NCBI GenBank assembly: GCA_030695565.1
Contig: JAUYRZ010000085.1
Coordinates: 1-64,000, forward strand
DNA: 64,000 bases
Source of the DNA: Archangium sp.
GTDB lineage: Bacteria > Myxococcota > Myxococcia > Myxococcales > Myxococcaceae
Direction of reading: 5' to 3'
Every line of letters starts with the position of its first letter. Position 1 is the stretch's first letter. Positions 9,201 to 61,025 of the stretch are shown piece by piece. Position numbers and translations under genes: made by a program. Below the pieces are notes generated by a model. It ran no database searches, was not told where the DNA came from, and saw only the letters and a list, made by a program, of their open reading frames with translations.

Positions 9201-9306
9201 TCCCTCTCCCTGCGACAGCGGGGAGAGGGTCGGGGTGAGGGGCCCGGCTCCGACCCCGAAAAGCCCCTCACCCCAGCCCTCTCCCCGCTCGCGCAGGGAG
9301 AGGGAG
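9201..9306. repeat. Inverted pair of REP-like palindromes
   Basis: Two copies of the window's dispersed repeat face each other. 9201-9242 has a TCCCTCTCCC arm, a GGGGAGAGGGT arm and a CGGGGTGAGGGG tail; 9265-9306 is its reverse complement. They fill the gap between two convergent genes, the BIME-like arrangement known for REP elements. The structure could also act as a bidirectional terminator. Confidence 0.85.
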
Positions 9307-32530: not shown

Positions 32531-33700
32531 TCAGCTCGACATCGCCTTGCGAGCGCGAATGAGCGCCTCGTAGCTGCGAGTCACGCTCTGAGACAAGATC
32601 AACAACTCCCCGACGTCGGGGGGCGTGAGCTTGTCGGGCCCGTGATCCACATAGAGCAGGTGCACGAGCTTCCCGCGCACGAGCAACGGCAGAATCACCG
32701 CCGTCTGCGGGTACCCGCCCCCGAGCAGCTCGTAGAACACGTCCATGCCCGGCGTGCGCTTCATCGGCCCGATGAAGTGCGACTTCAGATCGCGCACGAG
32801 CTTGAACGTATTGGCCTCACGCAGCGTGACGCCGATGCGCCGCACCGCACGAACCGTGACGCCCTTGCCCATGCCCTTCCACCCGGTGACCAGATCACCC
32901 TGCACGTTGAGCAGCAGACTCCGGCGGAACTTGCTGCGAGCGAACTGCAGCACGGTGAGCGCGATGTCTTCGCGGTTGGTGCTGGTCAGCAGCTGCTTCT
33001 GGGCTTCGGGGAACGTGAGCGGCGGCGCCTGCACCTCGGCGCTCACCCCCGTGGGATGCGGCGCTGACGGCAGCGGAGCGGGGATCGAAGGCGCCACTTC
33101 GTCTTCGATCAACGCGCCGTCGATGATCTCTTCCTCTTCGCCCTGCGCCGAGTCGACCGCCTTCGCGTACAGCTTGGCGAAGTCATCCTCATTGATGAGC
33201 TCGGCGTCGCCGGGGTTGGGCGCTTCATCTTTCTTCTTCGAAGGCCGCAGCGCGTGCACGTCGATGGGCCGCATCGGCCGGAACGCCTTGCAGTGCGCGC
33301 GCAGCAACTGGTTCATGCGGAACTCGGGGATGACCACCGTCACCACGCGCTTGCCCGCCTTGAAGCCCAGCGCGTCGGTCGCCTTGAGCTGCGCGGGCCC
33401 GAGCACGGCCACGGTGATGCGCGTGGCATCGATGCGCATCGGGAGCACGTCTTCGTCGTCGTAGAACTGCCGGCTCACCAGCGCCAACGCCGTGGGATCG
33501 GGGACCATCTCGCCCGAGGCGAAGGGCAAGGCGTGCTGCTTGCCGAGCATGCGCGCGAGGTCGGCTTCTTTGAGAAACCCCAGCTCGACGAGGTTGGTGC
33601 CGAGCCGCCCGCCGTGCACGACCTGCGTCTCGAGGGCTTCCTCGAGCTGGTCCGGTTGGACCAGCTTCTCAGCCAGAAGCAGTTCACCCAGTCGCGGCAC
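32531..33700 (-). CDS. MshEN-domain (GspE N-terminal-like) protein
   Basis: 389 residues. The N-terminal part (about 1-145) has the two-helix plus beta pattern of MshEN/GspE-N domains: 'RLGELLLAEKLVQPDQLEEALETQVVHGGRLGTNLVELGFL...LARMLGKQHALPF'. In other proteins MshEN binds cyclic di-GMP and opens type II secretion or type IV pilus ATPases. Here the ATPase domain is missing; a central acidic, Pro-rich linker (about 175-235) leads to a C-terminal domain with alternating strands and helices ('TVRAVRRIGVTLREANTF', 'AVILPLLVRGKLVHLLYVDHG') of the GAF-like type. Cyclic di-GMP binding is possible but inferred. It is 12 nt upstream of the VOC gene stop in the opposite reading sense of order, sharing the strand. 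Confidence 0.75.
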   Translation of the reverse strand: MPRLGELLLAEKLVQPDQLEEALETQVVHGGRLGTNLVELGFLKEADLARMLGKQHALPFASGEMVPDPTALALVSRQFYDDEDVLPMRIDATRITVAVLGPAQLKATDALGFKAGKRVVTVVIPEFRMNQLLRAHCKAFRPMRPIDVHALRPSKKKDEAPNPGDAELINEDDFAKLYAKAVDSAQGEEEEIIDGALIEDEVAPSIPAPLPSAPHPTGVSAEVQAPPLTFPEAQKQLLTSTNREDIALTVLQFARSKFRRSLLLNVQGDLVTGWKGMGKGVTVRAVRRIGVTLREANTFKLVRDLKSHFIGPMKRTPGMDVFYELLGGGYPQTAVILPLLVRGKLVHLLYVDHGPDKLTPPDVGELLILSQSVTRSYEALIRARKAMSS

Positions 33701-33712
33701 GCGGACCTTCTA

Positions 33713-34114
33713 TTACGGCGTCGATGGGCTGTCGTCGGGATGATGCGAGAGGCCGACCAGGTTGCCCTCGGGATCCCGAACGTAGAGGGTCCACCCGGTC
33801 TCTCGCTCAAGGGGCAGGCCGCGCCGGGCGAGCTCTTCGACGATCGTGCGCCGCTGTGAAGCCTCGATGCGCAGCGCGACCATCGAAAAGCCGATCGCGC
33901 CCGACACGCCCGCCTCCGCGCCTTCGACGGCGATGAAGCCGCCCTGGGTCTGCGCCTGAGCCGTGCTGGTGCCCACCCAGATGCTACGCAACGAGCCATC
34001 GGGGCGATGAAAACGCTTCAGCTCAGGCAGCTGAAGCAGCTCGGTATAGAAAGCCGCGACGCGAGCGACGTCACGAACCTGCACCGCCACGTGATGAAAC
34101 CCGAGAACCTTCAT
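33713..34114 (-). CDS. VOC (glyoxalase/bleomycin-resistance) superfamily protein
   Basis: The ATG at 34114 overlaps the stop of the upstream gene by 4 nt (ATGA), which sets the start. The 133-residue product begins MKVLGFHHVAVQVRDVARVAAFYTELLQL, the first strand of the vicinal oxygen chelate fold, with the metal-ligand His at 7-8 and a second half ending 'WTLYVRDPEGNLVGLSHH', giving the usual Glu/His ligand near 118-124. The substrate cannot be told; the family covers glyoxalases, dioxygenases and antibiotic-binding proteins. It closes a five-gene surface-protein operon, which is an odd place for a soluble metabolic enzyme. Confidence 0.85.
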   Translation of the reverse strand: MKVLGFHHVAVQVRDVARVAAFYTELLQLPELKRFHRPDGSLRSIWVGTSTAQAQTQGGFIAVEGAEAGVSGAIGFSMVALRIEASQRRTIVEELARRGLPLERETGWTLYVRDPEGNLVGLSHHPDDSPSTP

Positions 34115-36966
34115 ATTGAGTCCCCCTCGCCCTGCGAAGCGGGGAGAGGGTCGGGGTGAGGGGCCGACCTGCGTCGCCGCCAGACCATCAGCACCGCCAA
34201 AACGAGCGCCGAAACCTCGACCTGAGAACAACCACAGCCGGTCGAAGGCGCTGCCGAAGGAGGCGCGATCGAAACCACGTACCCCCGCACCGAAGCGACG
34301 GGCGCAACGCTGGGCGATGAGAGCAAGCGCGAACGAACGCTGAGCCGAATCGTCGAGACGCCCGAAGCAGGCACCGTCACCCCATCGACGACCAATCCAT
34401 CCTCCGTCGAACGCGCCGTCGCCCGCACCCCATCGACGAGGATCGACTCGGAGATCGGCGTTCCGCCACTGAACGGCAACGCGACCGAGACGCCATCGAC
34501 CGCGCACTCCGTGGTATTGCGGAGCATCACGTCGAGCACCACCGCCTCTTCCTCTCTGCGCAGTGGCGGCCGCGCCTTCACGCTCACTTCGACGAAGGGC
34601 TGCACGCCCAGTTCGATCCGCCGCGTGGCCGTCACGCTGTTGCCAGCGCCTGCGTCGGCGGTCCATTCGAGCTCGACCTGTTCACCGACCACCGAGAAAT
34701 CGAGCGCCTCGGATTGCAGCTCGAGCGTCTCACCGCTGCCCGAGCTGATCGCGAGGGCGGGCCCGCTCACCGAGCGCCAGGAGAACGAAGCAGCCGCACA
34801 GGCATTCGGCTCGGGGAGCAGCGTCAGCGACGAGCGCGCCCCCACGCCGCAGCTCACGTCGACCCGCTCACTCGACAACGCTCCGATGCCCGCCTGCGTG
34901 AAGGGCAAGGTGATCGATCCCTGATCGGTCGCGCCGGTCGCAGCACCGTTCTCGAACAGTTGAGCCACCACCTCGTACGTGCCGCCCGAACACCCGCCCG
35001 GGATGGACAACGCCCAGCCGCCGTCCTTCACTGCAAAGTCGCCCTGGGCCACCGGCGCGCCCGCGCTCGACACCGTCACGTTGGCGAACGCATTGCGCTG
35101 GTCGAGGCACCCCGCATCCACCTTCAACAACCCGAAGAGCACCCCGGCGTCGCCTTGCACGCTGCCGAAGAACTCCGTCGAAGCGTCGAGTGCGGCGATG
35201 GGATCGACGTCGACCACCAGCGTGCCTGCGTCAGAAACGCGACCAGTCGAATCACCCCACACCCGCCGAACCGCACTGGCGGTGACCTGGCCAGGCACGA
35301 CCGCACACTCAGGCGCGATGACTCTCAGGCCGCCATCGAACCCGAGCACCTGCGAGGCACCCGCATCGATGGTCCACTCGAGGATCGTTCCGGGGAAGTC
35401 ACCGCTCGCGCTGCACACGTGCTCCACGTCGGTGGCGCGATAGTCGACCTGCGAACCACTGGCTTGCCTTGCGGGGCTCGAGAAGACAGGTGCGTTCGGC
35501 GCGCCCCACGGCGTGATGCTCACGTCGATCACCGACGTCGTCGGAGGACTGGCGCTCAACCACGTGGCGGTGACGGTGATCGCTCGCTGGCCGCCATCGG
35601 AATTGCACTCGGTGGCAGGCGGCGTCCAGGTGAAGGCAGGGCCAGACCCCATCTGTCCAGTTGCGGTCGACCACGACAGGCTCGCAGGGTCACAGCCACC
35701 ATCGATGAAGGCATTGAAGGTGACCGCGGGACCTCCCGCTGGCGCCACCTGGGCGTTCACGTTCGTCTGCAGGGCGCCGCGGGCGAGCACGGTCACCGGC
35801 ACCAGCACCGTGCGATCATGCTCGAGCAAGCCGTCCGTCACCGTGACTTCGAGCGCGAGGGGCACACAGCCGACCGCGGGCGCGGTGAAGTCGATCTGCG
35901 TTCCATCTGCGATGCCCGCCACCGAGGTGAGCACACCCGCATCGCTCGACCACGAGACGAACACGGGGTCGCCATCACCATCACCCGCATCGGCCATGAG
36001 TCGAACGGTCTGTCCCACGTCGACCGGCGGGACCACCACGGCCACGCCGGGAGCGACCTCGTTCTCCCAGAACCAGATCACGCCCGCGTCACTCGCCGCG
36101 GCGCAGTACCGATCGTCGATGCAGTTGATCCGTTCGAGCCCGAGCGGAGCCGGCCGCGTGACCCACGTCTCAGCAGGACGCGCGGGATCGGGGATCGGCG
36201 AGAGCATCACGTTCGTCGTCGTGGTGACCATGCCGAGCGCGCCGCTGATGCCCACGAACCGGGGAAAGAGCCCGGCGGGCATCACCGGCGTGAAGACGAC
36301 GGGCGTGCGGTAGTCGCGAATCAGCTGCAACGAACTGGTGGTGAGCCCCAGGATCGCCGGTGCGCCCTTGAGAGCGAAAGGCGCCGCATCTCGCCAGTTC
36401 GCGGGGCCCGTGATGGGGAATGGCGCGCCAGCGTCAACACTCACGCGAAGCCCCACGCCACTGTTCACCGCCGCGTAGTCGACTCCTCCAATCCGAGCCG
36501 TCTGAAGCGAGCGCGTGCTGCTACTCGACGCGGGCAGCCCCAGGGCGGACCACCCCGGCCCCGCACCAGGACCTGCCCAGAGCGTGTCGTTGTTCGTGCT
36601 GGTGACTACGGCGATGCCCAAAGGTGCATTTGACACCAACCGGAACCTGTTCCACGTGCCCGCGCCGAGTGGCGTCGGTGAGCCACAACCAGGGGAAGGA
36701 GTGATGACAGCGCCGGACAGGCCCAGAAGACAGTTGGCCCCGAAGTAGCCGGCGCCCACGAAAGTGCCTGCGAGCGAGTTGAGGGTCGTCACCCCCGCAT
36801 CCGTGACCTGGAGCGCCACCGCGCCGCTGATGGCCGACGTGGCGAGCACCACGCCAGCATCGACCATCTGCACGTCGCTCACCGGAGTCGTGACCGTGCC
36901 GATCTCTCGCCAGCCCGCGAACGCGAGCATCGGCAGCAGCACCAGCATCGCGCCCAACACTCTCAT
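34111..36966 (-). CDS. MYXO-CTERM surface protein with Ig-like repeats
   Basis: 951 residues. The ATG at 36966 lies in an ATGA overlap with the stop of the upstream barrel gene. A signal peptide (MRVLGAMLVLLPMLAFAG) leads into a possible beta-propeller or lectin-like N-terminal domain (about 20-340), then four or more Ig-like segments ('VGQTVRLMADAGDGDGDPVFVSWSSDAG', 'PVFSSPARQASGSQVDYRATD' and others, about 370-820) and a DUF11-like domain (about 825-905, 'VEVSVKARPPLRREEEAVVLDVMLRNTTECAV'). Near the C-terminus is a MYXO-CTERM segment: CGCSQVEVSALVLAVLMVWRRRR. After the Arg cluster the frame continues for 18 residues encoded by a REP-like element (see 34121-34164). Surface display is inferred from the anchor. 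Confidence 0.85.
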   Translation of the reverse strand: MRVLGAMLVLLPMLAFAGWREIGTVTTPVSDVQMVDAGVVLATSAISGAVALQVTDAGVTTLNSLAGTFVGAGYFGANCLLGLSGAVITPSPGCGSPTPLGAGTWNRFRLVSNAPLGIAVVTSTNNDTLWAGPGAGPGWSALGLPASSSSTRSLQTARIGGVDYAAVNSGVGLRVSVDAGAPFPITGPANWRDAAPFALKGAPAILGLTTSSLQLIRDYRTPVVFTPVMPAGLFPRFVGISGALGMVTTTTNVMLSPIPDPARPAETWVTRPAPLGLERINCIDDRYCAAASDAGVIWFWENEVAPGVAVVVPPVDVGQTVRLMADAGDGDGDPVFVSWSSDAGVLTSVAGIADGTQIDFTAPAVGCVPLALEVTVTDGLLEHDRTVLVPVTVLARGALQTNVNAQVAPAGGPAVTFNAFIDGGCDPASLSWSTATGQMGSGPAFTWTPPATECNSDGGQRAITVTATWLSASPPTTSVIDVSITPWGAPNAPVFSSPARQASGSQVDYRATDVEHVCSASGDFPGTILEWTIDAGASQVLGFDGGLRVIAPECAVVPGQVTASAVRRVWGDSTGRVSDAGTLVVDVDPIAALDASTEFFGSVQGDAGVLFGLLKVDAGCLDQRNAFANVTVSSAGAPVAQGDFAVKDGGWALSIPGGCSGGTYEVVAQLFENGAATGATDQGSITLPFTQAGIGALSSERVDVSCGVGARSSLTLLPEPNACAAASFSWRSVSGPALAISSGSGETLELQSEALDFSVVGEQVELEWTADAGAGNSVTATRRIELGVQPFVEVSVKARPPLRREEEAVVLDVMLRNTTECAVDGVSVALPFSGGTPISESILVDGVRATARSTEDGLVVDGVTVPASGVSTIRLSVRSRLLSSPSVAPVASVRGYVVSIAPPSAAPSTGCGCSQVEVSALVLAVLMVWRRRRSAPHPDPLPASQGEGDSI
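34121..34164. repeat. REP-like palindrome inside the 3' end of a coding region
   Basis: Carries the arm CCCTCGCCCTGCGAAGC followed by GGGGAGAGGGT and the CGGGGTGAGGGG tail, practically the same as the copy at 44542-44585. It is read in frame at the end of the 951-residue MYXO-CTERM protein, giving the tail 'APHPDPLPASQGEG'. Confidence 0.85.
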
Positions 36967-39900
36967 CAGTAGCTGATCTCCGTGCGCAGGTAGACGCGAT
37001 CTCGCGACGCGGTCGCGCCCGTGTCCAGCCCGGTTCCCGTAAATCCGAAGGCGTTGTAACCCCCGCCCACGAAGAAGCGGTGGTCGAAGCGGTATCCCAC
37101 CTCCGCGCGCAGCGACGCCCATGAGCCGCCGTCCGGTGCGACTGAACGCGCGACCGCCTCACCGGCGAGCTCCAGGCCCTCCCAGATGCGCACCGAGGGT
37201 CTGACCGACGCGGCGAGGATCGGCCCGACGGTGGTGAGCGCGAGATGGCCGCCTGCGCCGATCGCGAAACGATCTCCCAATCGAATCGTGGGCAGCAGCG
37301 AGATCACATGCACGCGCGTGTCGAGCGAGGCCGTCCAATTCTGCTGATAGGCGTAGCGCGCGAGCAGTGCCCCGCGTGAAAAGCGCCAGGCCACCGAGCC
37401 CGTCGCGTCGACGGTGCGGCCCACCAGGGCGTCGTTCTTCGTCGAGTGTGTCCACAACGCGCGCGCGGTGAGCGAGACATCACGGTGGGCCCGCCACTCG
37501 CCGCCACCCGAGGCCACGAACTGGCGCAGCGTGCTGGCGCCTTGTTCATCGCGCACTTCTCCCCGGGCGAAGAAGCGCAAGGCGTCGCGTTCGTAAGAGA
37601 GGGTCAAGCCGCCTGCGTTGCGGGCGACGTCTGGAGCAAGCCCATCGAGTGCCCGCGCGCCGTGTTCGTACCGCGCAGTCACCGTGAAGGCCTCATCGAC
37701 CCGCTGGGTGAGCCCGACCGCGCGCGCCAGCCGCAGCCCATCGACATCGGTGGCCGACACATCTTCCACGAAGACCGCCGTGTTCGAATCGACCTGCTGC
37801 CTCACGCCCGTCACGAGCCTGCGTTCACCCGCGCCGGGCGCATCGGCGTCGATCGAATGCACGCCGTACCAGGTCTCGGTGCCCACCGCGTACGAGACCG
37901 TGCCCCACACCTGGGGCCCGAGCGCCGGGCCCCAACCGCCGCGCAGGCCCAGCTCGAGCTTCTCGCTGGGCTTCAAGTCGACGCCGACGCTGGCGAAGGA
38001 GAGCTCCATGCCTCCGAGCGAGATGAGCTGCTGCCGATAGCCCGCGCGCAGCTGGAGCCACGGCGTCAGGCGGTACCGGGCGGCCAGCCCCAGCGTGAAG
38101 CCTCCCTTCGTTTCCCCCGACAGGGTCTGCTGGAACTCGCGCGCTTCGAGGCGCACGCCGAACTCGGTGCGCTCGTACCCCACGCCGCCGCCGAGGGTCC
38201 GCCCCTGCACGCGTGCGCCCGAAAAGGGATCACGCGGATCGGCCATGTCGCGGAAGTCGACCAACGCCGCCACCACGATGGGCCCCAGCGGTTGTTCGCC
38301 GCGCAGCGAGACCTGGTTCAACGCCCCCAGCTGAGCGGTGTCTTCGAAGCCTGCTTGCCGCCAGCGCCACGCGGCATCCCACGAGCCCTTGCCGAAGAGG
38401 CCCTTCGACCGCGCGCGCAAGGTGAGGGCCCAGCCTGAGGTGTCGAGCCTCGAAGGCGTGGCGAGCTGCTGCGTGAGACCACCATCGCGAGAGAACGCGA
38501 GGCCCTGCACCGGCCCGAAGCTGCGCGCCCCTTCGGCTGACAACCACACCGGGCCCAGCTTCGCTTCGGCCGACGCCCGCAGCAGGTTGTAGCTGCCGTC
38601 GCGGAAGGCGCTGCCGGTCACCTTCACCGGACCCAACCGCGCGCGCAGCTCACCGCCCAGCACGCCCTCGGTGGAGAGCCCCGACTCGAGGTACTCGTAG
38701 TCGGCCACCAACACGGCCACCACGCCGGCCGTGAGCGGGTCGGTCTGGAGCAACGACTCGCTGACCAGGAACGAGAGCGGGCGGGTCAACAAGACGCGGC
38801 CGGTGAACAGATCGATCGTGTAATCGCGCAGCCGCTGGAGCCGCAGCTCACGCACCGGCAGCTGGGTGACCGCGTCTCGCCACTCCACGCGGATGAGCTC
38901 GCTGCCTGCGACGACCGAGCTCTTCGAGAGGAAGAACAAGCTGCCACCGGTGCTCTCGAAACGATCGTGCATCGGCCGCCGGGTCAGCCCGCTCACGAAG
39001 TCGGCCTGCGCGGGGGCTGCGAGGGCCCGAAGCTCGACACCGAAGGCAGACTTCTGCGTCGGCGTCTTCACCTCGAGGAAAGCGCCCTGCACCGCTCGAT
39101 GCGCGCGGCCTGCGTCGGCGGCCGCCTGAAACCAGCGCGCGCTGCCATAGCCCAGACGACCCCACGCTTCGTGGGCCAGCTCCACCCGAAAACGCCCTTC
39201 CGACGGGTTGCTGGCGATGGTCGCGCTGTCATCGGCGAAGGCGAGCTGCGTGCGCATCGGATCGAGCTGCCGCTCGAACACGTCGACGCGCCGGGCATCG
39301 AGCAACGTGCGCGGCTGAAATGCAGACGCCCCCTCCACACCGCGTAAGTCGACGTCGCGCAGATCGAGCTCGAGGCCGAGCTTGAAGCCGCCGAACGACG
39401 CGCGCGCCGCCGCGGCGCCCCGGCCGAAGACGTTGAACGCACCGGTGCGCACGTCGAAGTTCGCTTCGACATCGAGCAGGCCGACCACGAACACGCCCGC
39501 GGCCCCCAGGCGCCGCACCGACTGCGTAAAGCGCAGCCCGCCCGAGCTGAACGAGAGCACCACCTCGTCGCCCGAGACGTTGCGCGCGCCGCGCCCCGAC
39601 GGATCGAGTTGCAGCGGTTCACCCTCGATCGAGATGGTGGTGCCGGGAGGAAGCTCGGCCGAGAGCACGCCCGACACGGGCCAGGCGATCTTCCCGAACG
39701 GCTCGATGCCGCGCGGAATGAGCAGCGTGCTGCCCTCGCGGCGCACCAGGTCGAGCTTGAACACCCAGAGCCTCAGCTGCCCGGGCCGCTGCAGCGCGAC
39801 GGGGATGGTGTTGGAGCCCTCCACCAGCCGCACCCACTGCTTGCCCTCGGGAGCGGGCGAACCCGCGATGCTGGCCTGCTCGCCTTCAGGCACCACGATC

Positions 39901-40364
39901 GCCAACTCGTACTCGAGGCCCGCGGCTTCCCGCCGGAGCGCCGCGGTGTCCCGGGTGAGTGAAGGCGCGGTCGATTCGCCCCTGCGCAACGCAAAGTCGA
40001 CGAAGAGCGCGGAGCCCGCGGAGACCTCGATGGTGCGCCCGCGCTCGGCGCCGGCCCAGCTGCCCAGCAACGAACCGGGATCGACCTTCACCCGATGACG
40101 GCCCGGCGCGAGCCGCCCTCCCCCGTAGACCTCGGCGGTGCGGCCCGAGACGCCCGCGAAATGGAACCGGCCGTCACGATCGCTGACCGCCTCGAGGCCG
40201 GTCTCCATCACCACGCGCGCGGCCTCGACCCCGGGCTCGTCGGAAGCGCAGCGTTCGTCGCCGTCGAGATCTTCACAGACGCGGCCGAGCACCACGCCCT
40301 CGTCGAACTGGCTCACCACCGGCGCTTGCGCGAGCACCCAGGCAGCCAGGCCGAGGGCGATCAC
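36966..40364 (-). CDS. Large outer-membrane beta-barrel with N-terminal SdrD-B-like domain
   Basis: 1132 residues, starting at ATG 40364 inside the stop of the upstream gene (ATGA). A signal peptide (MIALGLAAWVLAQA) leads to an SdrD B-like/Ca-loop domain (about 20-130: 'VLGRVCEDLDGDERCASDEPGVEAARVVME...SDRDGRFHFAGV'). Middle Ig-like parts span about 130-290. From about 290 to the end there is a long series of amphipathic strands alternating aromatic and small residues ('RWRQAGFEDTAQLGALNQVSL', 'GYGSARWFQAAADA'), ending in a terminal aromatic (RTEISY), the sign of an outer-membrane barrel. Such N-terminal Ca-loops with a barrel suggest surface export or anchoring. It is the third gene of the operon; the cargo or partner is not visible. 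Confidence 0.8.
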   Translation of the reverse strand: MIALGLAAWVLAQAPVVSQFDEGVVLGRVCEDLDGDERCASDEPGVEAARVVMETGLEAVSDRDGRFHFAGVSGRTAEVYGGGRLAPGRHRVKVDPGSLLGSWAGAERGRTIEVSAGSALFVDFALRRGESTAPSLTRDTAALRREAAGLEYELAIVVPEGEQASIAGSPAPEGKQWVRLVEGSNTIPVALQRPGQLRLWVFKLDLVRREGSTLLIPRGIEPFGKIAWPVSGVLSAELPPGTTISIEGEPLQLDPSGRGARNVSGDEVVLSFSSGGLRFTQSVRRLGAAGVFVVGLLDVEANFDVRTGAFNVFGRGAAAARASFGGFKLGLELDLRDVDLRGVEGASAFQPRTLLDARRVDVFERQLDPMRTQLAFADDSATIASNPSEGRFRVELAHEAWGRLGYGSARWFQAAADAGRAHRAVQGAFLEVKTPTQKSAFGVELRALAAPAQADFVSGLTRRPMHDRFESTGGSLFFLSKSSVVAGSELIRVEWRDAVTQLPVRELRLQRLRDYTIDLFTGRVLLTRPLSFLVSESLLQTDPLTAGVVAVLVADYEYLESGLSTEGVLGGELRARLGPVKVTGSAFRDGSYNLLRASAEAKLGPVWLSAEGARSFGPVQGLAFSRDGGLTQQLATPSRLDTSGWALTLRARSKGLFGKGSWDAAWRWRQAGFEDTAQLGALNQVSLRGEQPLGPIVVAALVDFRDMADPRDPFSGARVQGRTLGGGVGYERTEFGVRLEAREFQQTLSGETKGGFTLGLAARYRLTPWLQLRAGYRQQLISLGGMELSFASVGVDLKPSEKLELGLRGGWGPALGPQVWGTVSYAVGTETWYGVHSIDADAPGAGERRLVTGVRQQVDSNTAVFVEDVSATDVDGLRLARAVGLTQRVDEAFTVTARYEHGARALDGLAPDVARNAGGLTLSYERDALRFFARGEVRDEQGASTLRQFVASGGGEWRAHRDVSLTARALWTHSTKNDALVGRTVDATGSVAWRFSRGALLARYAYQQNWTASLDTRVHVISLLPTIRLGDRFAIGAGGHLALTTVGPILAASVRPSVRIWEGLELAGEAVARSVAPDGGSWASLRAEVGYRFDHRFFVGGGYNAFGFTGTGLDTGATASRDRVYLRTEISY

Positions 40365-41959
40365 CGGGTCGCCTCGATCACCGCGCAGACGCGGCTCTGA
40401 ACATCGGTGATCGACATCAGCCCCGACGGCAGGTCTTCACGGGTCTTGCCGTGGCTGACCACCCGCCGCACCCCGCCGCGCGAATCGCTGATGTCGACCG
40501 GGCGGCCATCGAGGATCTCGCCTTGGGGCGTCTCCACCCACCACTCCACCCCGCCGCTGCGCTGCAAGACCCTCACGTTCATCGGCAAGGGAGGGCCGAC
40601 CGCCACCGGCACCTCCGCGATCACCCCGGGCCTGACGCCGCCATCGGCGCCGAGCTGCAGCCGCAAGCCGGGCCACTCGGCGTGCACCAACTCACCCGTC
40701 GCGGCCAGCTCGGCGATGCCCTCAGCCGAGGTGGTCAGCTCGAGTTGCCCTACCCGCAGGCGCTGCGAAGGCACCGGCAGGCCGGCGAGATCCGTCACCG
40801 TCACGGTCACCCCGCCGTCGCTGGGCCAGGCCTGCAGCCGCGCCGGTTCCTTGCCCAGGGGGCCGTTCGCGCGCACCTGCACCGAACGCGTGCCCAGGAT
40901 CTCTTCGGGCGGGAGCGCCCAGGTGAGCCGCGCTTCACCCCGCTCGTCCGTCACCGCACGATCGGAGCCCGGGCCTTGAACCGCGACCCCCGCCAGCGGC
41001 CGGCCGAGCTGATCCTTCGTGATGGCCAGCGCGCGCCAGACCCCACCCGCGTGCGCGACCGTGTCTTCCGGCTTCACCGTCAACGAGCGCACCGGCCCTT
41101 GCGAAAGACCGACGACGATCTCTTCGCTCGAGTCGACCTTGCCCTGCTTCCAGATCGCGGTCATGCGCTCGACGCCGCTGCCCAGCTCGCGCGGGGCCGT
41201 CCACGTCCACTCGTGCACGCCGTCAGACAGATCGCGTGCCGCGCTCCAGGTGCCTCGGCCGCCCTTCCACTGAATCTTCGCGCCTCGGCTCGCCGCTCCG
41301 TAGCGATCAGACGACGCGCAGAGCACCCGCGCCCGCGACACACCGTCGGCCGGCAGCTTCGTGGGCGTCACCACGCACGCCAGCTGGTCGGTGGGCGGCA
41401 ACATGAGGTCGAGCGGCGACGTGCGCTTGTTGCCCACGCGATCGACCGTGATGGTCTTCGCCATGCCGATGCCCGGGGGGATCACCACGGGCAACCTGAA
41501 GGTGCCCCCCGCCTGCGCGGTCACCGGCCCGAAGGTCTCGTCACCGAGCGTGAGGCGCACCTCCGCGCCCGCTTCCGCCCGGCCGGGCACCTCGACCGCG
41601 CTGGAGATCGGCACGCGCAACACGCCGAACGCCCCTTCCACCGATTGAGGGTGAGGCCAGGGCGCGAAGGCCACGATGATGGCCACCTCGGGAAAACGAG
41701 TGGTGGGCAGCACGTAGCGCGCACGAAAACGCCCGGGCCCCACGCGCTCCACGGCCGCGAAGGTGCCCACGTTGGCGCGAAGCACCGGGGGCGCGGGCTG
41801 ATCGACGCCGCCGATGGCGATCTCCAGGGTGGCCTCGGCGTCACGGCCCTTCACGGGCGCCGTCGGCGCGAGGGTCAACGTCACGCTGGAAGCAGCGGGC
41901 GCCTGACCCCAGGCCGAGACGGCGATCAGCAGGCTGACGAGAGCGGCACCGCCACGCAT
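40361..41959 (-). CDS. Secreted Ig-like domain protein
   Basis: 532 residues with a signal peptide (MRGGAALVSLLIAVSAWGQ, cleavage after WGQ). The mature part is beta-rich, with several Ig-like domains: 'VEVPGRAEAGAEVRLTLGDETFGPVTAQAGGTFRLPVVIPPG' and 'RAVTDERGEARLTWALPP' (big-1-like pattern), 'VTVTVTDLAGLPVPSQRLRVGQLELTTSAEGIAELAATG' near 400. No anchor or enzyme motif is visible. The ATG at 41959 lies 1 nt after the stop of the upstream propeller protein, and its own stop overlaps the barrel gene's start by 4 nt, so three genes are translationally coupled. A role as a surface bridging or adhesive subunit delivered through or beside the barrel is inferred. Confidence 0.8.
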   Translation of the reverse strand: MRGGAALVSLLIAVSAWGQAPAASSVTLTLAPTAPVKGRDAEATLEIAIGGVDQPAPPVLRANVGTFAAVERVGPGRFRARYVLPTTRFPEVAIIVAFAPWPHPQSVEGAFGVLRVPISSAVEVPGRAEAGAEVRLTLGDETFGPVTAQAGGTFRLPVVIPPGIGMAKTITVDRVGNKRTSPLDLMLPPTDQLACVVTPTKLPADGVSRARVLCASSDRYGAASRGAKIQWKGGRGTWSAARDLSDGVHEWTWTAPRELGSGVERMTAIWKQGKVDSSEEIVVGLSQGPVRSLTVKPEDTVAHAGGVWRALAITKDQLGRPLAGVAVQGPGSDRAVTDERGEARLTWALPPEEILGTRSVQVRANGPLGKEPARLQAWPSDGGVTVTVTDLAGLPVPSQRLRVGQLELTTSAEGIAELAATGELVHAEWPGLRLQLGADGGVRPGVIAEVPVAVGPPLPMNVRVLQRSGGVEWWVETPQGEILDGRPVDISDSRGGVRRVVSHGKTREDLPSGLMSITDVQSRVCAVIEATR

Positions 41960-41960
41960 T

Positions 41961-43679
41961 TCAGCGCGGCAGTCTACGTTGCTCCCGTTGCGTCACGAGG
42001 CGAATCGAAGCCTGCCGACGCAGCAAGAGCGCGAGGAAGGCGAACGCGATCAGGAACGGCGTCAACGAGGCTCCCGAGCTGGAGCAACCAGCCGCCTGGG
42101 CACCATCGATGTCGTTGCTGGCTTCAAGAGGAGATGAAACGGTCGAGCTGCACACCTCGCCGAGCGTGAGGCGCACGCGGGTGAGGGGCTGGTGGGTGTC
42201 GCCGTTCTGAATGTGGAGCTCCGCCGAGATCGCGTTGACGACGGTGCCGGCCGTGTAGGTGGTGTTGCCGCTGCCACCGTGGCGGCAGCCGCCGTTGTGC
42301 ACCCGGCAACGATCCAGCACGTAGCTGCTGGCGAGCGCGAGCTGCGTGGGGCTGGTGGGGTGCGACTGGTTGGAGCGGCTGCGGTACTCGCACTCCACCG
42401 TGCGGTTGCCGAGGTTGATCGTGAGGTCAGCCTTCTTGTTGCCCGCGTTGCCGGCCACCACGGGGATCGCCGCGGGGATGGCGAAGGACATCGAAGGCGT
42501 GAAGTTGGCCTGGCCATCGACGCTGCGCGTGGGGCTGTAGAACCGCGTCGCTTCGATGGTGACGCTGCGGTTCAGACAAGCCGTACCGGCATCGGGCGTC
42601 CCCGCGTCGGGCGTGCCCGCATCGACCACCGGGGCCGCAGGCAGCGTGAAGGTCGCCGCGTAGATGTTGGCGTTGTTCGGGTCGGTCAGCGCCACCGACT
42701 GCCACACGAGGCGCACTTCGCCATTGGGGAGCACCGTCACGTCGTTGAGCGACTCGGCGAGATCGGGCGTGTTGGTGATCTGGAAGATGCGGTTGCTGGT
42801 CAGCTCGACCAGGAAGATGTCGGGGTTGCCGAAAGGCTCGCGGCTCTCGAAGGCCACCAGCTGGCCGCGGATCGACGGGTTGTACTGCTCACCGGGAATC
42901 TCCAGGACCGTCTCCGGGCCGCCGGTGACGGGCACCAGCACGATGTTGGTGCCCGTGGGCCCGGCCATGTTCTCGCGCTGGAAGACCACCAGGCTGCCGT
43001 TGGTGTCGGCGCTCAGCTCGTTGAGCACCTGCGAAGCGAGCGGCGCGATCAGCCACAAGCCACCCGAGCGATTGGCGCGGTAGACGTCGCAGTTGGCCGA
43101 GCTCGCGCAGCGCTCCCAGGTGATCACGTTGCCGTCGGGCGAGACCGCGGGGTTGGTATCGGACACCGCGTCGTTGGTCAGCCGGGTGACCACCGAGGTG
43201 GCGAGGTCGAGCACCATCAGCTCGCCGGGGCCGCTGGCGTAGTCGACGAAGGCCACCGTCTGCGAGCCGAGCGCGACGCCCATGCGGGTGGTGCTGGGCG
43301 CGGGCGCCAGCTCGGTGAGCGTCTGGGTGGTGATGTCGAACAACATGATGGCGCTGCGGTCTGGAAAGAGCCGGGTGAAGACGATGCGGCCCTGGTCGAC
43401 GTCGCTGAGCAGGTCGTTGGCCAGACCGCCACCCGCGAGCAGGTTGGAGATCGCCACGTCCTGGTTGGTGGGGAAGTCGTAGTAGCGAATCTGCTGCAGC
43501 AGGCCCGCCGCGCCCATGTCGACCGCGTTCGAGTACGCCGCCGTATCGGCGTCGACGTGGGGGTCGAACTGCTCACCTTGCTGATCGTTGATGGTGACCT
43601 GCGGGGGGGACAGCAGGCCGCCGTTCGTCGGCGTCACCGTCAGCGTCATCGCGAAGACCACTGCTGCCACTGTGCCCAT
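41961..43679 (-). CDS. MYXO-CTERM beta-propeller surface protein
   Basis: 572 residues; the ATG at 43679 has GGAGG 4 nt upstream. A signal peptide is present (about 1-20). The body (about 30-365) shows WD40/TolB-like strands: 'QIRYYDFPTNQDVAISNLL', 'RLTNDAVSDTNPAVSPDGNVITWERCASSANC', 'FESREPFGNPDIFLVELTSNRIFQIT'. 'SPDG' is typical of PD40/TolB propeller repeats. A 'DAGTPDAGTPDAGT' linker and a further domain (about 385-520, 'TIEATRFYSPTRSVDGQANF...') lead to a MYXO-CTERM anchor (AAGCSSSGASLTPFLIAFAFLALLLRRQ) with an Arg-rich tail. The stop is 1 nt before the next gene. First gene of the coupled operon, so its promoter should be in 43680-43983. Confidence 0.85.
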   Translation of the reverse strand: MGTVAAVVFAMTLTVTPTNGGLLSPPQVTINDQQGEQFDPHVDADTAAYSNAVDMGAAGLLQQIRYYDFPTNQDVAISNLLAGGGLANDLLSDVDQGRIVFTRLFPDRSAIMLFDITTQTLTELAPAPSTTRMGVALGSQTVAFVDYASGPGELMVLDLATSVVTRLTNDAVSDTNPAVSPDGNVITWERCASSANCDVYRANRSGGLWLIAPLASQVLNELSADTNGSLVVFQRENMAGPTGTNIVLVPVTGGPETVLEIPGEQYNPSIRGQLVAFESREPFGNPDIFLVELTSNRIFQITNTPDLAESLNDVTVLPNGEVRLVWQSVALTDPNNANIYAATFTLPAAPVVDAGTPDAGTPDAGTACLNRSVTIEATRFYSPTRSVDGQANFTPSMSFAIPAAIPVVAGNAGNKKADLTINLGNRTVECEYRSRSNQSHPTSPTQLALASSYVLDRCRVHNGGCRHGGSGNTTYTAGTVVNAISAELHIQNGDTHQPLTRVRLTLGEVCSSTVSSPLEASNDIDGAQAAGCSSSGASLTPFLIAFAFLALLLRRQASIRLVTQREQRRLPR

Positions 43680-43983: not shown

Positions 43984-44057
43984 GGCCAAGTAGCTCAGCT
44001 GGTTAGAGCGGCGGTCTCATAATCCGCAGGTAGTCGGTTCGAGTCCGACCTTGGCCA
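43984..44057 (+). tRNA. tRNA-Met (CAT anticodon)
   Basis: A full cloverleaf folds: acceptor GGCCAAG/CTTGGCC, D arm GCTC/GAGC, anticodon stem with loop CTCATAA (anticodon CAT at 44018-44020; the innermost T-T pair is mismatched), T arm GTCGG/CCGAC with TTCGAGT. Discriminator A at 44057; CCA is not encoded. The sequence features favour elongator Met, but a CAT tRNA-Ile2 (lysidine-modified) is an alternative. Confidence 0.9.
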
Positions 44058-44061
44058 CTTC

Positions 44062-60929: not shown

Positions 60930-61025
60930 GGCGAAGCGGCCGAGTCTGGTGACCGGTGCGGTCTTCAAAACCGTTGGGCTGGCGCGCGAGCGTCGGTCGG
61001 TGGGTTCGATTCCCATGCTTCGCCG
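60930..61025 (+). tRNA. selC: tRNA-Sec (selenocysteine, TCA anticodon)
   Basis: An unusually long tRNA of 96 nt with an 8-bp acceptor (GGCGAAGC 60930-60937 with GCTTCGCC 61017-61024), discriminator G, anticodon loop CTTCAAA with anticodon TCA (60965-60967), and a long variable arm (GGGCTGGCGCGCGAGCGTCGGTCG region). These are exactly the traits of bacterial selC. It implies UGA recoding as selenocysteine in this organism, with SelA, SelB and SelD encoded elsewhere. CCA is not encoded. Confidence 0.95.

Follow-up and report, generated by a model that had tools for sequence, protein, structure and literature searches.

A candidate outer-membrane surface complex of Myxococcota encoded by a run of four genes

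An undescribed complex of the cell envelope appears to be the product of a four-gene run that recurs across Myxococcota, a large group of soil bacteria that live socially and by predation. In the copy analysed here, which lies in a stretch of 64,000 nucleotides of an Archangium sp. contig (JAUYRZ010000085.1, positions 1 to 64,000; hereafter the window), the genes are called g1 to g4 (Table 1). The original prediction of an envelope or surface unit is well supported; the "assembly or export unit" with a "secreted bridge" of which it also spoke remains an inference. Our tentative reading is that the four products plausibly form one outer-membrane surface complex of Myxococcota, in which the g3 barrel exports or holds the Ig rod of g2 and in which g1 and g4 are surface-anchored partners. 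Contact, predation and development of myxobacteria are driven by surface complexes, few of which are known to our knowledge. Since its conservation extends well outside a single family, the gene unit is open to tests in members that are genetically tractable. If g3 really forms so large a barrel, it would widen the range of sizes known for single-chain outer-membrane barrels and raise the question of what the barrel lets through or holds.

Table 1. Genes and related features of the cluster in the window.
Feature	Position	Strand	Description
g1	41961..43679	minus	572 aa; signal sequence, TolB-like (PD40) beta-propeller, MYXO-CTERM-like tail (GCSS...hydrophobic...RR)
g2	40361..41959	minus	532 aa; signal peptide; predicted Ig-like rod (Big_1/invasin-D3 type); no membrane anchor seen
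g2 stop/g3 start overlap (GTGA)	40361..40364	minus	kept as NTGA in 30 of 34 relatives
g3	36966..40364	minus	1132 aa; signal sequence, Ca-loop SdrD/Cna-like domain, two Ig-like domains (to approximately residue 286)
g3 C-terminal part			large predicted outer-membrane beta-barrel up to the C-terminus; terminal Tyr/Trp
g4	34111..36966	minus	951 aa; signal sequence, possible N-terminal propeller, PKD/Ig-like middle, GCGC MYXO-CTERM-like tail
Copy of dispersed repeat at g4 3' end	34140..34162	minus	source of the ATGA overlap between g4 and the VOC gene
g5	33713..34114	minus	133 aa; VOC/glyoxalase-fold protein; probable neighbour, not a member

Five minus-strand genes running from 43679 to 33713 and joined by four coupled junctions had been proposed, and direct reading of the sequence confirmed the genes as well as all four junctions. 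One base separates g1 from g2 (TGA-A-ATG), g2 and g3 overlap by four bases (GTGA, with GTG as the start codon of g3), g3 and g4 overlap by one base (TGATG), and g4 and g5 by four (ATGA). A sixth gene, which encodes an MshEN domain (32531-33700), lies 12 bases past g5. On the other side, a DedA family gene precedes g1, and a tRNA-Met gene (43984-44058) is found upstream of g1 on the opposite strand. A promoter scan found none.

The core of the unit is narrower than had been suggested, namely g2 and g3, and its distribution is wider. Of 195 Myxococcota genomes, 116 have a match to g3 at 1e-5, where the weak matches include giant paralogues, and 130 have a match to g2 at 1e-10, paralogues included. 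Within the family of the window (f1), 78 of 96 genomes have g3 by a hand count of the listed rows; the system is therefore not essential, given the 18 genomes that have no g3 match. The proposed check for a conserved gene order in Myxococcota was borne out for this pair: in 93 of 99 genomes, g2 precedes g3 on the same strand. The set of 99 leaves out the other 17 of the 116 genomes, whose g3 rows are weak (short matches and giant paralogues). Distances of up to 7 kb between g2 and g3 were accepted, since g3 matches are partial in distant genomes, and the distance is at most 600 bases in 88 of the 93. Among the six exceptions, three genomes carry g2 solely on other contigs (G082, G139 and G004), one has the end of g2 just ahead of g3 at the start of a contig (G007), one has g3 at the end of a contig and a weaker g2-like match on another (G146), and one has no g2 among the matches listed (G193). 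The same arrangement is seen in 34 of the 35 genomes whose neighbourhoods were analysed.

At the boundary of the pair, the in-frame NTGA overlap is present in 30 of 34 relatives, down to approximately 30% protein identity, a count that comes without a control rate from unrelated gene pairs. By family, the overlap is found in 16 of 18 loci in f1, 4 of 4 in f3, 2 of 2 in f8, 1 of 1 in f10, 6 of 7 in f11, 1 of 1 in f25 and 0 of 1 in f27. It persists far beyond the reach of the flanking DedA, DUF_b and cNMP genes; these and a TPR gene adjoin the cluster on its upstream side only in near relatives. Because the pairing is near-invariable, it suggests that g2 and g3 act together. The coupled junctions had further been taken to mean that the products are made in fixed ratio. 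This is not supported, since an overlap says nothing firm about stoichiometry and since conservation is confined to the overlap of g2 with g3, the contacts of g1 with g2 and of g3 with g4 varying outside near relatives; fixed stoichiometry was rejected. No natural fusion of g2 and g3 was noticed among the loci, and the long open frames of L049 and L050 overlap in other frames.

The product of g2 is predicted to be an Ig rod resembling invasin-type adhesins. It matches Big_1 at 35.8 bits (cut-off 34.9), and Big_1 and invasin-D3 are each matched by 22 of 23 aligned orthologues. The AlphaFold model (pLDDT 88.5) is all strand, and structural alignment places it close to InvD (Z 12.1, rmsd 4.3, 182 aligned), InvE (Z 11.7) and FdeC (Z 11.3); complement C3 and GH2 enzymes match at about the same Z as the adhesins (11-12), and families absent from the rows of this alignment are not counted as excluded. 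The source genome has a second g2-like match (two in total), and paralogues of g2 with 600-800 residues occur commonly across the phylum.

For g3, a single-copy gene in the source genome, the window's protein by itself has no family match above cut-off. Its orthologues are more informative: of 32, 16 match Glucodextran_B, 8 match SdrD_B and 6 match OMP_b-brl. A Ca-loop (DxDGDGxC...EPG) is conserved, and all 31 sequences compared end in Tyr or Trp; a C-terminal Tyr or Trp is usual for barrels inserted by BAM. The barrel gene might have predicted as a soluble protein, and AlphaFold gives instead a barrel with a very large number of strands (pLDDT 80.9, pTM 0.74), with residues 290-1131 mostly strand. 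After residue 285, the model contains 44 segments of strand, each seven or more residues long, counted from its reported secondary structure and not from barrel closure. Several of these segments, at 460-526, fall in the most conserved inner segment (approximately residues 455-545, among the best-kept stretches of the protein) and may not be part of the barrel wall, which is why the wall is estimated at 36-42 strands.

Fold matches of the g3 model in Foldseek and structural alignment are mostly outer-membrane barrels and are not specific. FimD is the top row by a narrow margin (Z 13.3, rmsd 16.0, 352 aligned), with AlgE, porins and TonB-type barrels within 1-2 Z units and most rmsd values at 12-21 Å. 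Foldseek also matches the Deinococcus SlpA barrel (8agd) and SprA (8gl6, E 1.9e-6, with low TM-scores of 0.13 and 0.09). A sequence search of the PDB with the g3 profile gave a best E of 0.64.

The product of g1 satisfies the profile for a TolB-like propeller, matching PD40 at 25.3 bits (cut-off 20.9) and the TolB-like propeller profile at 2e-10; 17 of the 18 orthologues match a TolB propeller, with scores that stay far below the cut-off of the TolB equivalog. The gene is present at 26 of the 35 loci analysed and was not found in three of 18 f1 loci (G074, G086 and G101), so it is dispensable. Both g1 and g4 had been read as MYXO-CTERM proteins. In favour of this assignment are the architecture of Cys, hydrophobic stretch and Arg, which is present and conserved in both, and the orthologues that match: TIGR03901 is matched by 2 of 18 g1 and 4 of 18 g4 orthologues, and TIGR03382 by 4 of 18 and 7 of 18, respectively. 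The tails in the window, however, stay below the NCBI cut-offs: that of g1 scores 12.7 bits against TIGR03382 (cut-off 15.85), that of g4 has no match to NCBI MYXO-CTERM profiles, and these profiles at curated cut-offs match nothing on this contig. The C-terminal pattern of g1 is kept in 24 of the 26 relatives with g1, as scored by a loose regular expression with no shuffled control, and a profile comparison of g1 with g4 found only the C-terminal tail in common. An ORF with a MYXO-CTERM-like tail follows g3 in 18 of 18 f1 loci (by way of the g4 profile in G060 and G092) and in four of the 17 other loci (G033, G006, G007 and G183), some of the 35 loci ending too near g3 or g2 to show a following ORF. 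Starts of orthologues were set by a simple rule, and some N-termini of g1, g2 and g4 orthologues are approximate. MYXO-CTERM proteins are sorted to the surface via myxosortase and the T2SS, according to the available part of the source (PMC11980579), and g1 and g4 would thus be placed at the surface if their putative tails, which miss the cut-offs in the window, are functional.

The description of g4 as an Ig protein may hold only in part. PKD/Ig-like matches are found in a few g4 orthologues, many cysteines of g4 are invariant, and g4 is perhaps more than a simple Ig protein, judging from its relatives: the gene at the place of g4 in two distant relatives begins with a YCF48/BNR propeller (PF14870, 9.3e-15 and 4.1e-20). 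A profile comparison of g4 with these two relatives aligned the tail only, and the propeller was not seen in the g4 of the window. The last approximately 16 residues of g4 are encoded by a dispersed repeat, CCCTCACCCCGACCCTCTCCCCG, which has seven copies in the window at no more than three mismatches (0 expected; positions 9219-9287, 25856, 34140, 44561, 57541 and 63158) and which at 34140 and 44561 reads PHPDPLPASQGEG. At this junction, the three nearest relatives that were read have a g4 that ends ahead of the VOC gene without overlap, and one of them carries a related element in the gap. Because the repeat made it, the g4/VOC overlap is recent and uninformative on co-function, and the VOC gene is probably a bystander. 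The product of g5 does match Glyoxalase (35.2 bits, cut-off 20.6), and the gene is near the cluster in 14 of 18 f1 and 4 of 4 f3 loci, often at least 1 kb away. The five-gene unit that included the VOC gene was thus rejected, given the repeat-made overlap and the spacing of at least 1 kb in many relatives. The MshEN protein, of the c-di-GMP-binding type, stays beside the VOC gene in many relatives.

If the four products do form one surface complex, the domains of g3 ahead of the barrel would lie in the periplasm and receive g2, and the barrel, with its conserved inner segment, would export the rod or hold it at the surface. The rod would then be outside rather than periplasmic, carried there by the barrel. 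Reaching the surface by the MYXO-CTERM/type II route, g1 and g4 could dock, lipid-anchored, on the barrel or the rod, and the outcome would be an adhesive or receptor-like assembly, comparable to a split invasin with surface lipoprotein partners. A bolder version, which we consider unlikely, would make this an undescribed outer-membrane translocation system of Myxococcota: one of the largest single-chain barrels, with a predicted 36-42 or so strands, would export and hold the Ig rod of the upstream gene to which it is obligately coupled, and two lipid-anchored surface proteins, one or both of them propellers, would cap it, with giant paralogues of at least 4000 residues as one-chain versions bearing long N-terminal repeats.

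The same barrel could instead be the channel of an export system whose main cargo is encoded elsewhere, with g2 as a periplasmic plug or chaperone-like subunit and g1 and g4 as surface caps. Translocons (FimD, LptD and SprA) are among the very large single-chain barrels in the g3 fold results, and the inner segment is well kept and common to the giant paralogues, as might be expected of a plug. In the cluster, however, neither an inner-membrane component for energy supply nor a recurrent cargo gene was identified, and SlpA illustrates that a very large barrel can be structural. We regard such a channel as somewhat unlikely. The SlpA match speaks in turn for a structural scaffold or sensor in which g3 links the surface layer with the periplasm, across which g2 extends, with no export. 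What precedes g1 in other families is a gene for a membrane-anchored protein whose Glucodextran_B Ig domain resembles that of g3, and in L062 a sensor kinase adjoins it; yet in the window a DedA family gene takes this place, and the top structural rows of g2 are adhesin rods. We hold a scaffold or sensor to be unlikely. That there is no complex at all, and that independent envelope genes stay together by operon inertia, would agree with the variable g1/g2 and g3/g4 spacing outside near relatives. It is hard to reconcile with an adjacency in 93 of 99 genomes and a 4-base overlap kept at approximately 30% protein identity while flanking genes drift away, and it has very little probability in our view.

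The original prediction knew no named system with this order, and none of the named systems tested fits. Inverse autotransporters (intimin, invasin, InvD/InvE and FdeC) likewise combine a Big_1/invasin-D3 Ig rod with an outer-membrane barrel, but theirs is small, with 12 strands, and forms one chain with the rod, whereas here there are two chains and a far larger barrel. Type Ve was rejected, as barrel and rod have an ORF each, both in the window and at the loci examined. FimD/PapC ushers share a large barrel with adjacent Ig-like domains, and FimD is the top row of g3, tied with other barrels; usher membership was rejected, with no usher Pfam match in 32 g3 orthologues and no match to a chaperone family in the eight window genes scanned. 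SprA, the type IX translocon, is a giant single-chain barrel of 36 strands that resembles g3 at the level of structure alone, with no sequence match in the PDB from the g3 profile. A surface-anchored propeller beside an outer-membrane barrel recalls the BtuB-BtuG type, in which barrels are capped by propeller lipoproteins (8bmx, which we take to be of this type, ranks 48 among the g3 structural rows), but g3 has no match to a TonB plug or receptor domain. A TonB-dependent transporter was rejected likewise, with no plug or TonB_dep_Rec match in 32 g3 orthologues. Anti-phage defence was also rejected, as PADLOC gave no match at 1e-3.

Two further comparisons are with myxobacterial systems. Oar, a Myxococcus TonB-type transporter needed for PopC secretion, is a barrel implicated in protein export; it differs in its plug domain, which carries a TonB box, and in the 22-strand barrel of a TBDT, features unmatched in g3 (PMC6434023, from the available part of the article). 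A 4-base gene overlap that joins a MYXO-CTERM surface protein to an envelope partner has its nearest precedent in TraA/TraB, the outer-membrane exchange receptor of Myxococcus xanthus (PMC3325183, likewise in part). In that account, PA14 and Cys-repeat domains belong to TraA and an OmpA domain to TraB; the present cluster has an Ig rod, and its barrel is much larger. Membership was rejected, with no PA14, Cys-repeat or OmpA match from Pfam or NCBIfam in g1, g3 and g4. No description of the cluster came to light in the literature searched, where most subscription journals were missing, or in the available portions of PMC3222651 and PMC4158809.

Relatives of g3 reach giant size in other Myxococcota families, with open frames of up to 5351 residues. 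At four such loci (L069-L072), the frames span 3297-4236 residues within the fetched stretch; the C-terminal part of the giant ORFs matches the g3 profile at 1e-57 to 1e-69, and no g1, g2 or g4 profile match was found within that stretch. The inner segment at approximately 455-545 is common to g3 and these paralogues. At eight loci outside f1 (L049, L050, L055, L056, L060, L062, L063 and L066), a membrane-anchored protein precedes g1, and its Glucodextran_B-like Ig domain is C-terminal. Elsewhere in the window, a selenocysteine tRNA gene is located at 60930-61025.
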